From the IMG/VR virus record IMGVR_UViG_3300025949_000004, positions 1 through 46,747 of that record: a stretch of DNA of 46,747 nt. The stretch is one strand, 5' to 3'. The notes under the pieces were generated by a model that was not told the origin of the DNA, did no database searches, and worked only from the letters and a program-made list of their open reading frames with translations. The DNA is from a virus. Both the position numbers and the translations under genes were made by a program. Positions within the stretch are counted from its first letter, which is position 1, and each line of letters opens with the position of its first letter. Shown in pieces: positions 3,311 to 36,954 of this stretch.

Positions 3311-4558
3311 ATGGCTAGTCGCTTCAGCAAGCGCACTCAGGAGAACGACGACAACGTGACGGCCGTCCCGGCAATCGACCCGGACGAAGTTCTGTTGCCG
3401 GGCGAGGGTCCCGCTGAGAGCGCGGAGGAAAGCGACAACGCTTGGACGGATGCGGCTGCCGCATTCTCCGAGACGGCGTCCGGCAATGACTCGGCTGAGA
3501 ATGCCCCGGCCGAGAATGACAACACTCCGCAGGAGGAAAGCGAAATGACCGACACCGTGACCGAAACCATTCCGGCGCAGTCGCTGACGGAACGTCTGGA
3601 GAATGACGGTTACAAGGTGACCGATGCCGCTGCGACATTGCTCGCGGAAGCAGAGGCGAACACCGTTACCATGCTGGACATTGAGTCTTTGCCGAAGGAT
3701 GCAAAGATTCTCAAGATGCAGCTTTCCATTCTGGAGGAGTTCGCGGAGGAATACTCCGCGCTCCGTAAGGAGTTGAAGGATGGCACTTCTGGCAAGGACG
3801 AGAAGGTTGCCGAATTCCTCGCGGAGAATGACGTCATTCTCGCCCCGGTCACGGACGAGAATGGCGAGCCGACCGGCGAGAGCGTCGACCTGAAGAATGC
3901 GCTCGCGGAAGCGCAGGAGGCTCGCGAGAAGGCTATCGCGGCTGCGAATGCCGCAGAGGCCGCTCTCATGGCGCACATCGAGAGCGAGCTTTCCAAGATG
4001 CCCGGCGGCGTCATGTCCGAAGAGGACATCAAGGCAAAGACCGAAGAGATCAAGCTCAAGTACGCGGAATACGTCGGTCAGCACAAGGCGGCAAAGGACT
4101 ATCTCGACAACTACCGCCAGCACAAGAATGCCGACGTGGGCGAGATTCACCAGTACGTCACGCACATTGACCGGCCGTCCGGTCGTGCGACCACTTCCGG
4201 GAGTGGCACGCGCAATGCTCCCGGTGAGGGTGCTGGTCGTTCCGTCCACGTGAGTGGCGCATTCTTCAGCCGTGACAATGGCGCGACGTGGGAGCACGCG
4301 ACGCAGGAGAAGACGAATGCCAAGGGCGAGAAGATCACTCTCTCCAACCCTCAGGCTCTCGCCGTGGCTCTCGGTGCGGCATTCTCCACCACGGTGACAA
4401 AGGAAGAGATCGTGGACGCGTGGTATGCCGCGAGCGACCAGACTCGCGAGACTGCCACCAAGGCGAACATGCCGAACGAGAAGGTTTTCCCGCTGACGTT
4501 CAAGAACGGTGACGGGAATGACGTCACCACCACGGTCAAGATCCAGAAGCGGCAGTAA
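3311..4558 (+). CDS. Large acidic coiled-coil protein
   Basis: This 415-residue protein has an acidic low-complexity N-terminus (residues 10-85, rich in Glu, Asn and Ala). A long Ala/Glu/Lys helical part at about 85-280 is probably coiled coil, and a C-terminal domain of about 130 residues follows. That last part contains SRDNGATWE, which resembles a single Asp-box (SxDxGxTW). The ATG follows AAAGGG. The gene has its own promoter candidate and a strong terminator, so it is probably made in quantity as a monocistronic message. No function can be assigned; a nucleoid-like or decoy role is speculation. Confidence 0.8.
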   Translation: MASRFSKRTQENDDNVTAVPAIDPDEVLLPGEGPAESAEESDNAWTDAAAAFSETASGNDSAENAPAENDNTPQEESEMTDTVTETIPAQSLTERLENDGYKVTDAAATLLAEAEANTVTMLDIESLPKDAKILKMQLSILEEFAEEYSALRKELKDGTSGKDEKVAEFLAENDVILAPVTDENGEPTGESVDLKNALAEAQEAREKAIAAANAAEAALMAHIESELSKMPGGVMSEEDIKAKTEEIKLKYAEYVGQHKAAKDYLDNYRQHKNADVGEIHQYVTHIDRPSGRATTSGSGTRNAPGEGAGRSVHVSGAFFSRDNGATWEHATQEKTNAKGEKITLSNPQALAVALGAAFSTTVTKEEIVDAWYAASDQTRETATKANMPNEKVFPLTFKNGDGNDVTTTVKIQKRQ

Positions 4559-32455: not shown

Positions 32456-32894
32456 TGAAGTCTACCCCATTGTGCTTGTAATGGATTTTGGGGCTGCGCA
32501 ATACCGAAGCCGCAATGAGCCCGGCCTCCATTCGTGCCTCCTGGGCTTCTTTCATTCTCAGTGCTTCGGTAGCCTTATTCAAGGCGTCTACCCGATTGAG
32601 GACATTACCTTGAGCATTATCAACACTGATAATGTGAGCCAGAAGACGCTCGTCAGCATCATCAAAAAAGCCAACAGTATAGGGCGTGCGGCCCGGCATT
32701 CGATGTACGACTGCCCAAGGCTTCGTATCCAGCGGCCCGCGAGAACCCGGGGGTATAAAGTGTAACTCCAGATACGGATCATATGCCCTCAACAGTTCGT
32801 CAATGCGACGATGCTTCTCAGTAATGGGCTCGTCCTTGAGTGGAACGTGAATGCTACCATTCTGGTCAAGAAGGATAGCCCCGTTGCCGTCCAT
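32436..32894 (-). CDS. Hypothetical virion-operon protein, 152 aa
   Basis: The start overlaps the upstream stop (TAATG), and the gene overlaps the adaptor by 20 bases. A beta-rich N-terminus (ILLDQNGSIHVPLKDEP) is followed by a charged helix. Between decoration and adaptor genes it may be a minor head or neck protein. No family is recognised. Confidence 0.6.
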   Translation of the reverse strand: MDGNGAILLDQNGSIHVPLKDEPITEKHRRIDELLRAYDPYLELHFIPPGSRGPLDTKPWAVVHRMPGRTPYTVGFFDDADERLLAHIISVDNAQGNVLNRVDALNKATEALRMKEAQEARMEAGLIAASVLRSPKIHYKHNGVDFSELRGR

Positions 32895-33370
32895 TACGCC
32901 ATCCTCGTGATCATAATGGTCGCCTTGTAAACGGAACTAGCCGAGGCATTCGACACTGCATTAACAGTGAAGTTATTGCCCCCCACCCCTTCAGCATAGA
33001 ATGTATACGTTGACTGAGTGTTCGCAACATTCGCGACTGGACAAGCTCCAGTGCCGACAGTGCCACCATTATTCTCAAACTTAAAGTTGTCGATAGCCGT
33101 AGACTCTGCGGTCGCGCCAAAGCCAACAATGACATCGCACCTGTAATAGCCAGTCGAGGGAATGGTCACTGTGACAATGGCAGTACCGGCAGTCGGGGCC
33201 GTCGCGGTTGCGGAATTCGACTTGGTCGAAGACTGTAATGCCGCCTGCGCGGACATTGTGACAAGACCCTGGCCCATTGTCACAGCAAGGTTATTGTCAG
33301 TAGCAGGAACGGCAGCCAGATAATAGGCGCGCTCAAGGTCACCAATGGATACACTAGGCGGTGCAGTCAT
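32894..33370 (-). CDS. Probable capsid decoration protein
   Basis: GGGAGGG precedes the ATG. The 158-residue product is Ala/Thr/Ser/Val-rich and beta-rich (TAIVTVTIPSTGYYRCDVIV), with no charged core, like head decoration or fibre domains. It is separated from the capsid gene only by the small sponge-like gene and a terminator. The role is inferred from composition and place. Confidence 0.5.
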   Translation of the reverse strand: MTAPPSVSIGDLERAYYLAAVPATDNNLAVTMGQGLVTMSAQAALQSSTKSNSATATAPTAGTAIVTVTIPSTGYYRCDVIVGFGATAESTAIDNFKFENNGGTVGTGACPVANVANTQSTYTFYAEGVGGNNFTVNAVSNASASSVYKATIMITRMA

Positions 33371-33394
33371 TGCAAATCCCTCCCGGGGAAAAAG

Positions 33395-33428
33395 AAAAGC
33401 CCAGCCCAGAGTTCTGGACTGGGCTTTT
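33395..33428. terminator. Two-way intrinsic terminator
   Basis: AAAAGCCCAG pairs with CTGGGCTTTT around an inner CCAG/CTGG stem, and A/T runs flank both sides. On the minus strand it follows the sponge-like gene, so part of the transcription from the capsid genes should stop here and lower expression of the downstream tail genes. Confidence 0.85.
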
Positions 33429-33437
33429 CGTTTGACA

Positions 33438-33668
33438 TTATTCAGGCGGAAGAACGAGGGCCTTTACCGCCCACATCACGCATTCCTCAAACTTAGTCTC
33501 AGCGAGCGAGAATTCTCGCAGGTTCACCGGAATTGGAGTGCTATTCCGCGCATCCTCCAGTGCATCAGCGAAAGCCAATGCAGCTCGGCGCAGCTTGACA
33601 ATTTCACGAACATTCTTTTCGCTCGGCGCATGGTGCTCAATGCTCCGGCGCATCTTTTCACTCGCCAC
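33438..33668 (-). CDS. Acb2/Tad1-like cyclic nucleotide sponge
   Basis: GTG 33668 overlaps the capsid stop (TAGTG), with GGAGGG upstream. The 77-residue helical hairpin has the features I associate with the Acb2/Tad1 hairpin family: RRSIEHHAPSEKNV, then a long helix, NLREFSLAETKFEECVMWA and KALVL. Family members bind the signal molecules of CBASS (cyclic oligonucleotides) and in some cases Thoeris, and so block host defence. This would make it an early-acting protein in a late operon, or a product carried at high dose behind the capsid gene. The call rests on recalled family sequence, not a search. Confidence 0.6.
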   Translation of the reverse strand: MASEKMRRSIEHHAPSEKNVREIVKLRRAALAFADALEDARNSTPIPVNLREFSLAETKFEECVMWAVKALVLPPE

Positions 33669-34861
33669 TAGCCCTCCGTAATGTCGCCGATCAGACCCTG
33701 GGAATTCCTCTGGTGACAACCCAGCTGCATGTACTTGTAGACCGTCGCGTCATAGGCGTCAAAGCCGATAACGCGAATGAAACGGCTGCCGTCACGGTCC
33801 ATGAATGCCCAGTCCTGCGGCCGATAGACCGTGATCTGGTTCTCATTCAGGTAGTACATTGTATTCGGGTTGCAGTCAATGTCAGCCATGACGGGAATGT
33901 CGCCACGGTCAGTCGTGAATGCGAGCCCGGAAAAGCCACCCTCGAACTCTTGCGTATTCGTATAGCGGCGCTGCTGGACAAGCAGGTTGAAATACGCGCG
34001 ACGAACGCCAAGAGTGGTCCAGATGACAGTCGTGTCACCACCCTTTGTGTAGATGTCGTCAGCCTGCTTAATCATCAGACCTTCGGAAAGCGCGCGCTGC
34101 GTTCCGCCATTCGTGTTAGTCACGGAAGCCCAAACCGGAGTCGTTGCCGGGTCAATCCCGTAAAGGGCACCCGTTGCAGCGACAATGTTCTGAAGGCCCG
34201 TGATTTCACGGGTGACGTTGCCAGTCCTGACAATGATATCACCCGCAACGCCGGAGATAGCCGCACCATCGAATGTAATCGAGGTGTTCGGCGAGATAGC
34301 CGTAATGTTGCGGCCAGTCGCCTTCTGCGTGACACCCGTGGAGTCGTAGATGTCAATGACCATTCCAATTTCCACGTACGGCATTGTCAATGTCGTCGGG
34401 AAAGTGTTCGTGGTGGTATAGGTACCGCTCGCAGTGGCCAATGTACCAAGCGACGTTCCGAAGATCTGACGGTTGAGGTCACGCTTCAGGTCAGTCTGAA
34501 TGCCATTGATTTCCTGGTCCAGAACAGAGGCGAAAGCCTGCTCATTCGTCTGGGCCAGTTCGAATGTCTGACCGGAAAGCCGAACCGAACCGTAGAGATA
34601 AGCCAGGGAAACCTGGGCCGCAGCATAGCTCTGGTTCTGCGCCGTCGGGAGAGCTTCCATTTCGAGACGGGCACCGACACCATTGTTACGCTTGATGTGC
34701 GTAGCGAACTTGACGTACTTACCGCCGACAGTCGATTCGATATTCTCGGCCGACTGGTCCATTCGCTTCGTGATTCGGTTGTAGTTAGCTAACTGCTCCC
34801 GAATTTTCGGCTCGTAGATTTCCTTAAGAATGTTGTTAGCGGTGGTCATTGTAGCGACCAT
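33668..34861 (-). CDS. Major capsid protein
   Basis: I chose ATG 34861 (MVATMTTANNILKE), which follows AAGGG by eight bases; GTG 34870 is possible. The 397-residue protein has the capsid layout: helical N-terminal arm, a long helix (TDLKRDLNRQIFG) and a beta-rich insertion domain (about 140-235). A C-terminal domain follows with TKGGDTTVIWTTLGVRRAYF and GDIPVMADIDCNPNTMYYLN, common to P22-/HK97-like coats. It forms the head shell, and the scaffold gene lies directly upstream. Confidence 0.85.
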   Translation of the reverse strand: MVATMTTANNILKEIYEPKIREQLANYNRITKRMDQSAENIESTVGGKYVKFATHIKRNNGVGARLEMEALPTAQNQSYAAAQVSLAYLYGSVRLSGQTFELAQTNEQAFASVLDQEINGIQTDLKRDLNRQIFGTSLGTLATASGTYTTTNTFPTTLTMPYVEIGMVIDIYDSTGVTQKATGRNITAISPNTSITFDGAAISGVAGDIIVRTGNVTREITGLQNIVAATGALYGIDPATTPVWASVTNTNGGTQRALSEGLMIKQADDIYTKGGDTTVIWTTLGVRRAYFNLLVQQRRYTNTQEFEGGFSGLAFTTDRGDIPVMADIDCNPNTMYYLNENQITVYRPQDWAFMDRDGSRFIRVIGFDAYDATVYKYMQLGCHQRNSQGLIGDITEG

Positions 34862-34866
34862 TGAAA

Positions 34867-35679
34867 TCACCCTTGCTGGTTGGCTGCTTTCATCATGTTA
34901 GCCACCAGAGAGAGAGTGTCTTTCTTGCTCAGGCCCGCAGGATTGATCTGCTGGGAAGGCAATGCGCCCGCGCCGCTAATGACATTTGGGGCCTGGGGTC
35001 GGTTATGCGACGCCAGAATCTCATTGCGTGCGTTAATGAACTGCTGGGCTGCCTGATCCGCAGTCATTCCATTCTGCATGTAAGCCAGAACGTATTGTTC
35101 ATCAAAATCTCCATGCTTTGCGCGAGCCGCAGCCAGTTCAGAATCCAATGCCGCGTCGGCTTTGGCATTCTCGGCTGTCTGATTCTGCGCGAGCATGATC
35201 TGCGCCATTGTCTCCACGGTTTGCTGGAGACGCGCAATCTCAGGGTTGAATTGTCCACCCTGGCCAAGTTCATATTCAGCAGCACTCTCGCCCTGCTGGT
35301 TTTGCGCATTCTGCTGGCCCTGCGGCGCATTCTGCTGGGAGGCAGTTACGGCTGCATTCGCTACGTTGTAGCCATACGTCTCGGCGAGAATGTCATACAC
35401 TCGTCGCGGGTCCGTATTGATTGCGTCGTAAATGCCATAAGCCTGTTCCAGGACATCGCGGGAAACGCCCGCCTCCTTGAATGGCTTGTAGTCAGCATAC
35501 TCACCGTGTACCGCTTCAATGCGCGAGTTAACGCCCTTATCCCATTCACGGAGATGGGGCTTAACCATTTCGTGCATGCCTTCAGGAATGGCCGAGAGGA
35601 AATCACCCCACGCCGGGTTATCCGGTTCAGGAGTAGTGGCTTCCTGGGGAGTGACATTCTCGGCTGCCATCTCAGACAT
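34867..35679 (-). CDS. Capsid scaffolding protein
   Basis: The 270-residue protein has an acidic disordered start (MSEMAAENVTPQEATTPEP), a helical middle, Gln/Asn-rich stretch (about 118-135) and a C-terminal coiled coil ending in a basic helix (SKKDTLSLVANMMKAANQQG). The position just before the capsid gene and the helical make-up are typical of scaffolds, which leave or are cut as the head matures. A consensus promoter lies upstream. Confidence 0.75.
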   Translation of the reverse strand: MSEMAAENVTPQEATTPEPDNPAWGDFLSAIPEGMHEMVKPHLREWDKGVNSRIEAVHGEYADYKPFKEAGVSRDVLEQAYGIYDAINTDPRRVYDILAETYGYNVANAAVTASQQNAPQGQQNAQNQQGESAAEYELGQGGQFNPEIARLQQTVETMAQIMLAQNQTAENAKADAALDSELAAARAKHGDFDEQYVLAYMQNGMTADQAAQQFINARNEILASHNRPQAPNVISGAGALPSQQINPAGLSKKDTLSLVANMMKAANQQG

Positions 35680-35735: not shown

Positions 35736-35764
35736 TCTAATGAATAGATTAACTAGCTTGTCAA
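35736..35764 (-). promoter_or_regulatory. Promoter for scaffold/capsid genes
   Basis: On the minus strand TTGACA (35764-35759) is followed after 17 bases by ATTAGA (35741-35736). It overlaps the end of the upstream gene, and the 80-base gap before the scaffold start has no other gene. This would boost scaffold and capsid production. Confidence 0.6.
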
Positions 35765-36126
35765 CTCGCGTCGCCGCCGCCACCACTATCTCCGGTACCG
35801 GCAATGTCCGCGCTTGCATCGTCAGAAGTTCCTGAATCAGACTGGATAGGATTCCTAGACTGAGTCGCGAGCTTCTTATTCCTGCCCTTGGTCGTGTTCT
35901 TCTGCATTCGCCGACTGATGGCGCCCTTTCTATCCGAGGACGCCATTTCCACTGTCGGATGGTTCACTGTGTCGCGGTTATTCCGGTGCTGAATAAGCGA
36001 CTCTCGAATACGTTCTAATTCTGGCTCGATAGCATCACGCTTAGCCTGGAGAGCCCCCTTAACCTTTCGGTTGACGTCCCCATCGGCTTTCTCGCGAAGC
36101 TTTGAAGCGGAGCTTTCGACGCTCAT
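35761..36126 (-). CDS. Basic virion-operon protein with AI-x-RR motif
   Basis: The 121-residue product has a charged helical N-terminus, DRKGAISRRMQKNTTKGRNK in the middle, and a disordered Ser/Asp/Gly tail. It starts in an ATGA overlap with the upstream small gene. The AI-x-RR-[LM] motif is shared with the three genes upstream and with 29965-30213. Confidence 0.6.
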   Translation of the reverse strand: MSVESSASKLREKADGDVNRKVKGALQAKRDAIEPELERIRESLIQHRNNRDTVNHPTVEMASSDRKGAISRRMQKNTTKGRNKKLATQSRNPIQSDSGTSDDASADIAGTGDSGGGGDAS

Positions 36127-36314
36127 ATTCCCTCGAATGAGGTCCGGTTATCGTTTATCTCGTTGGAAAGCTTTCCGGCGTCCATCGCAGAACGCTTCGT
36201 AGTTTTCATTCGCCTCGCAATAGCGGAGCTTCGTGGGGTGATGGATTTTGCAGTATTCGCAAGGATCGGGATCCCCGGACTTGCTTGCGCAACTGCTGCA
36301 TTCCCTGGTCCCAT
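36123..36314 (-). CDS. Small basic protein with AI-x-RR motif, 63 aa
   Basis: The start MGPGNAAVAQASPG lies three bases after the upstream stop with AGG nearby, and the stop overlaps the next start (ATGA). The motif RSSAIARRMKTTKR sits in the centre. The tight chain on both sides makes this frame preferable to the longer alternative frame at 36148-36453. Confidence 0.55.
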   Translation of the reverse strand: MGPGNAAVAQASPGIPILANTAKSITPRSSAIARRMKTTKRSAMDAGKLSNEINDNRTSFEGI

Positions 36315-36316
36315 TC

Positions 36317-36676
36317 CTAGAGCCCCTTAAGCTCCGTGCCCCGAGAAGGATTGCCATTGAGCCGCCGAGAAATAGCAGCACTGCGAGCGCCAGTAGGCTT
36401 TTCAAGTCCCCGGATGCTCGCGCCTCTTCCTCCTCCCCCAAACTTTGGGGCATGCCCGCCTCCTAATCCAGCACCGCCAGTAATGGCCTTCATGATAGCG
36501 CTCGCCATAGGGTTACCGGTACTCTCGGCAGCCCCATTCAGGTTGAGAGAGGGTCGCGGCATTCCACTTGCCCCACCAAGACCCGGCGGCAATGTCGGAT
36601 TGGCACTGATGCCCATTCCCACACGGTTAGCGGTAACGGCTGCGCCCAAGCCGGGAGTTGCACTAGCCCTAGACAT
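36317..36676 (-). CDS. Gly-rich protein with AI-x-RR motif, 119 aa
   Basis: The start MSRASATPGLGAAVTANR is chosen over a GTG at 36685 because AGGTGAAGAG lies in front. It is Gly/Pro/Ala-rich and disordered, with a helix MASAIMKAITGG and the terminal motif RSAAISRRLNGNPSRG. It is one of four consecutive proteins with that motif. Confidence 0.55.
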   Translation of the reverse strand: MSRASATPGLGAAVTANRVGMGISANPTLPPGLGGASGMPRPSLNLNGAAESTGNPMASAIMKAITGGAGLGGGHAPKFGGGGRGASIRGLEKPTGARSAAISRRLNGNPSRGTELKGL

Positions 36677-36711
36677 TCTCTTCACCTACCCCATAACCAT
36701 TGTTATTCGGC

Positions 36712-36954
36712 TCAATAACCGGACTCTTGGTTTGTGCCGTTGTCGCCAGGTCCCGGAGGCGTTGCGGAGTTGCTTTTGGATGACCCCTTGGAGAGTCGGC
36801 GCGCAATGGCGGCATTCTTTGGGGCGTTATTGTTGTTCCCAGATCCTGGAGTTTTCGCGCCTCCTGAAGCAAGCTTTCCGGCAACCGTCCCACCGGTGTC
36901 TCGCTTCTTTGCGGCGGCTGCTTGGATAGCTGCGAATCCATTGTTATCAGCCAT
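36712..36954 (-). CDS. Small protein with AI-x-RR motif, 80 aa
   Basis: The start MADNNGFAAIQAAAAKKRD follows GGGGA. Gly/Asn-rich disordered sequence leads to KNAAIARRLSKGSSKSN and a polar tail. It begins two bases after the upstream gene's stop. It is the first gene of the chain carrying the motif. Confidence 0.55.
   Translation of the reverse strand: MADNNGFAAIQAAAAKKRDTGGTVAGKLASGGAKTPGSGNNNNAPKNAAIARRLSKGSSKSNSATPPGPGDNGTNQESGY

Follow-up and report, generated by a model that had tools for sequence, protein, structure and literature searches.

The minus-strand gene at positions 33438 to 33668 of the window, a 46,747-nucleotide stretch that represents one viral record (IMG/VR IMGVR_UViG_3300025949_000004), encodes a protein of the Acb2/Tad1 hairpin family and starts at the stop codon of the gene for the major capsid protein (MCP). 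The protein quite likely serves a podovirus-like soil phage, whose host is probably an actinobacterium, as a cyclic-nucleotide sponge of the Acb2 type. The protein class is already known, and it is the capsid-coupled placement that is of interest; tying a sponge to a shell gene whose product can trigger alarms is an unusual arrangement. The assignment also proposes a function for a small gene that could easily be taken for a structural protein of unknown role.

The initial annotation had noted a resemblance of the protein to the Acb2/Tad1 family and proposed a Pfam search. In that search, the protein matched PF24729 (Acb2/Tad1 hairpin) with a score of 46.5 bits against a curated cut-off of 27 (E=4.3e-12), and the alignment covers residues 12-71 of 76 in the protein and positions 2-56 of 58 in the profile. 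Using a profile built from ten relatives of the hairpin protein to search PDB sequences, we found Acb2 homolog 43, Tad1, Acb2 (p26), and Vs.4 among the best entries, together with one designed protein. The best of these matches, Acb2 homolog 43 (PDB 9ptq; E=4.6e-8), resembles the protein by profile only; its entry contains six chains of 76 residues. A tblastn search with the hairpin protein against 50,697 phage records and a search of NCBIfam gave no match, while a PADLOC match (Csx3-like, E=0.037) was dismissed as noise.

The AlphaFold2 model (63 aligned sequences, single chain) has helices at residues 4-9, 17-43, and 51-72 with a mean pLDDT of 90. This is the architecture of one short and two long helices described for Acb2 (PMC12043709) and agrees with the helical hairpin seen in the initial annotation. 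The closest solved structure is T4 Vs.4/Acb2. Specifically, in a Foldseek search of the PDB, ranks 1-3 were occupied by T4 Vs.4 with cGAMP (probability 0.75-0.96), followed by Tad1 and Acb2. Foldseek gave weak E-values (0.2), which is no surprise for 76 helical residues, and it is therefore the profile match that carries the family claim. Among predicted viral structures, nearly all named best matches were Acb2/Tad1 hairpin proteins. Thus, neither of the two outcomes that had been named as speaking against the family assignment, i.e. a lack of profile similarity and a different fold, was observed.

The helical hairpin at the C-terminus of Tad1 (Thoeris anti-defence 1) belongs to the same Pfam domain. 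However, Tad1 has about 120-140 residues and an N-terminal beta-sheet domain, whereas the 76-residue protein is about half that length, its model contains no strands, and the beta domain is absent. We therefore classed it as Acb2-like rather than as Tad1. With Acb2 (T4 Vs.4 and gp24 of the Pseudomonas phages PaMx33/PaMx41), it has in common the PF24729 hairpin, the predicted short helix and two long helices, the small size (76-94 residues), and a conserved basic residue and Thr, but it differs by a shorter inter-helix loop and by a His where Acb2 has the ligand-stacking Tyr. The genes also differ in their location; while the gene in the window lies behind the MCP gene, orf24 of PaMx41/PaMx33 ends a non-structural operon on the opposite strand.

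To compare ligand positions, we used an alignment of 63 sequences of hairpin relatives. Residue K26 of the PaMx33 protein, which we take to be the ligand-site basic residue, corresponds to R27 here, and the position is Lys or Arg in 63 of the 63 sequences. The position of T68 in T4 Acb2, where the T68M substitution has been reported to lower binding (PMC12657230), corresponds to T58 and is Thr in 58 of 63. Y8 of T4 Acb2, the ligand-stacking Tyr, is needed for binding of cyclic dinucleotides, and the Y8A substitution disrupts binding (PMC12657230, PMC12657218); this position is His12 here and is Tyr in 48, His in 7, and Phe in 2 of the 63 sequences. Judged by the alignment, the family tolerates His at this position, and His12 may alter the ligand preference. 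With these residues, it is plausible that the hairpin protein binds cyclic nucleotides; that the ligand-stacking Tyr is replaced by a residue present in just 7 of 63 relatives argues against a function as a sponge.

The open reading frame extends over 33441-33668 on the minus strand with the stop codon at 33440-33438, and its product has 76 residues (VASEKMRRSIEHHAPSEKNVREIVKLRRAALAFADALEDARNSTPIPVNLREFSLAETKFEECVMWAVKALVLPPE). The initial annotation had correctly recognized this frame but counted the stop codon in giving a length of 77 residues. The GTG start codon at 33668-33666 overlaps the MCP stop codon TAG at 33670-33668, generating the sequence TAGTG; the coupled start behind the capsid gene is thus present in the sequence as had been described. 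A Shine-Dalgarno-like GGAGGG (33672..33677, minus strand) lies within the last MCP codons just 5' of this overlap. GGAGGG and the stop/start junction are also present in the relatives L135 and L136, and L137 has AGGAG. A junction of this type with its own Shine-Dalgarno sequence would be expected to couple translation of the hairpin gene to that of the MCP gene. Translation could also start from the ATG that forms codon 6 or from a TTG at 33719, the latter giving a 93-residue frame in the mechanical list of open reading frames; the product of every candidate start (GTG, ATG, and TTG) contains the whole hairpin domain. Based on the Pfam E-value, the presence of orthologs on other contigs, and a dN/dS of about 0.1 (see below), the frame is a real gene and not a chance frame. 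Promoter-like sites near the gene were in no excess over chance.

Directly 3' of the hairpin gene, we identified an intrinsic terminator with a 16-bp stem and a T run (33394..33429, minus strand); a 67-nt stretch containing it has a folding energy of -35 kcal/mol (z = -5). This terminator, which had also been noticed in the initial annotation, closes the MCP-sponge unit. An equivalent strong terminator lies right 3' of the hairpin gene in those relatives whose loci were examined, while where no hairpin gene follows the MCP gene, as in examined loci with the hairpin gene before the scaffold gene, a terminator lies directly 3' of the MCP gene instead. Therefore, in loci with the hairpin gene after the MCP gene, it is situated between the MCP gene and the MCP terminator.

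The MCP gene itself (33668..34870, minus strand) was identified by matches to phrog_14242 (E=4.7e-106), SU10_MCP, and the NCBIfam family capsid_maj_Podo. The gene upstream of it (34867..35679, minus strand) matches phrog_33339, for which no function is named, and probably encodes the scaffolding protein based on its position between the portal and MCP genes. In the interval between portal and scaffold gene (35761-36942, minus strand), several short open reading frames have an AIARRL/AISRRM-like motif (KxxAIARRM) in common, and related viruses encode further small proteins with motifs of this type in the corresponding region. The next gene after the terminator (32894..33370, minus strand) encodes a beta-rich protein (C1q/TNF/CBM-like) that is modeled as a beta sandwich (AlphaFold2 pLDDT 72) with C1q-like and CBM folds as Foldseek matches; it may be a decoration protein of the capsid that forms trimers or binds sugars. 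More broadly, the minus-strand half of the window contains genes for the terminase, portal, MCP, virion proteins, and an Rv2525c-like glycoside hydrolase, which is probably the lysin, and the plus-strand half contains genes for an SNF2-like helicase, a PD-(D/E)XK nuclease, a helicase/primase-like protein, and AAA proteins. Because the hairpin gene is located in the structural half, it is probably expressed late. The isolated phages with the most closely related MCPs have Arthrobacter, Microbacterium, and Cellulosimicrobium as hosts, for which reason an actinobacterial host is likely.

To determine how often the hairpin gene accompanies this capsid family, we searched 79 loci encoding the same MCP family with a hairpin HMM for genes within 1.3 kb of the MCP gene and on the same strand. 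A hairpin gene was present near the scaffold-MCP pair in 18 of the 79 loci, after the MCP gene in 7 and before the scaffold gene in 11. The MCP tree unites the seven in a single supported clade, and the order MCP-hairpin-terminator is kept through this clade with MCPs down to 68% identity. In L134-L137, as in the window, the hairpin gene is directly 3' of the MCP gene; the two are separated in L138-L140 by a small open reading frame of about 80-100 codons (MFVAYKLNEGDVELINHTRNS...). In record-wide searches, the hairpin domain was found in 13 of 35 whole records and was away from the head genes in only 2, where it lies far off on the opposite strand. Since a hairpin gene is missing from many relatives that have this capsid family, the gene is accessory and not an essential part of the shell, and this distribution fits an anti-defence gene better than a needed shell part. 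We also considered whether an MCP gene is the usual neighbor of hairpin genes and rejected this, as only 2 of 57 upstream neighbors, both in the clade of the window, matched MCP families; the others were terminase, portal, tail, HNH, or unknown genes. A full-text literature search, in which few subscription papers were covered, found no description of a capsid-coupled Acb2.

The hairpin gene and the gene at 32894..33370 share a hypervariable patch. Between the window and the related locus L017, protein identity is 98% for the MCP, 66% for the hairpin protein, and 51% for the product of 32894..33370. Synonymous divergence is similarly raised, with a dS of 1.7 or saturated for the hairpin gene versus 0.45-0.56 for the MCP gene, and dN/dS of the hairpin gene is about 0.1 in the only unsaturated pair (window-L004). 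We therefore rejected accelerated positive selection as the cause of the variable patch. The combination of raised synonymous divergence and low dN/dS fits better with recombination, and these sequence comparisons make it most likely that recombination has exchanged the patch while it remained under purifying selection. A tree of the hairpins unites the MCP-coupled group with the hairpin of L116 and places the group before the scaffold gene elsewhere, which suggests that the two placements arose by separate gains. The alternative to two such gains is one inherited placement that shifted once, and a single origin of both was not rejected (AU p 0.07-0.20).

If the hairpin protein functions as its family membership predicts, it would assemble into a hexamer and bind cyclic di- and/or trinucleotides from CBASS-like enzymes, and perhaps gcADPR of Thoeris, and the bound nucleotides would be kept from their effectors. 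Proteins of this family sequester cyclic nucleotides but leave them intact (PMC12043709), and the dose of the sponge therefore matters. Co-production with the capsid protein would provide a high sponge dose as capsid protein, a known alarm trigger, accumulates. In the case of a staphylococcal Thoeris system, activation requires the capsid protein, and this protein by itself is enough (PMC12578639). For CBASS, a capsid mutation aids the escape of phages without acb2, but the wild-type capsid gene alone induced no CBASS toxicity in the same study (PMC10419184), and another CBASS is activated by a terminase transcript (PMC10686824). It is plausible that production of the sponge in step with the alarm trigger is the logic of its placement. 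The initial annotation had found a position by the MCP gene puzzling for a sponge, which is needed early. The position stands, and the apparent oddity of a late dose is eased, since published triggers include the capsid protein itself (PMC12578639); nevertheless, a late sponge would trail an early alarm, which speaks against the sponge function. The timing and dosing of Acb2/Tad1 sponges by phages have been little studied, and the clade with stop-to-start MCP and sponge genes makes it testable whether sponge supply matches that of the capsid protein, a Thoeris trigger and CBASS escape locus.

Several explanations compete over what the protein does and why its gene lies where it does. The hairpin fold could have lost nucleotide binding and now serve as a capsid accessory, i.e. 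an assembly factor, plug, or decoration. This would be in line with the Tyr-to-His change at the ligand-stacking position and with the finding that most hairpin-bearing members of the capsid family have the hairpin gene beside the scaffold-MCP pair (18 loci). However, the many relatives that make the same capsid with no hairpin gene and the two with a distant copy on the opposite strand argue that the capsid is independent of the hairpin protein; moreover, the protein retains the conserved basic residue and Thr, and other hairpin genes are found in many non-head places. We consider a capsid accessory distinctly unlikely. We regard as very improbable that virions carry the sponge and bring it into the cell together with the DNA to protect before genes are expressed, a possibility raised in the initial annotation for which adjacency to the capsid gene is the one point in favor. 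That adjacency is explained as dosing by the stop-start coupling, we identified no packaging signal, and the literature searched offered no precedent; the proposal is thus unsupported.

A question separate from function is whether the placement reflects selection, because a working sponge in an incidental place is compatible with the function that we propose. According to this explanation, a small cargo gene persists at a site where transcription is left undisturbed, in this case between the MCP gene and its terminator, without a selective link to the capsid as a trigger. We hold this tentatively as quite conceivable, given that hairpin genes elsewhere precede or follow terminase, portal, tail, replication, or unknown genes and that the patch appears to be exchanged by recombination. 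On the other hand, within a single capsid family the hairpin gene is found on either side of the scaffold-MCP pair, and the MCP-hairpin-terminator order has been kept across the divergence of its clade. A fuller proposal is that selection ties the sponge to the trigger gene so that dose tracks dose, that the two placements are separate gains, and that His12 may prefer a different signal; as a whole, we regard it as doubtful.

Other phages illustrate the range of locations. Arthrobacter phage Jasmine and Microbacterium phage Shocker encode an MCP of this family (about 41% identity) and carry PF24729 genes, but not beside the MCP gene; Jasmine has two hairpin sequences just before the terminase gene and Shocker one near the left end of the genome. 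The hairpin domain was not found in DS1 and ctEqG8. The two hairpin-like genes of Jasmine, genes 9 and 10 (L131:4149-4672), scored 64.9 and 21.3 bits and may represent a tandem duplication in which one copy has diverged. The closest hairpin outside this phage group (L116:2635-4277) overlaps the stop codon of a gene for the terminase large subunit, and in L114, L051, and L074 the hairpin overlaps a terminase, portal, or major tail gene or comes after it. Finally, cyanophage S-2L (L049:about 3986-4200) has an unannotated hairpin open reading frame that is flanked by tail genes and immediately precedes the one annotated as tail assembly protein.
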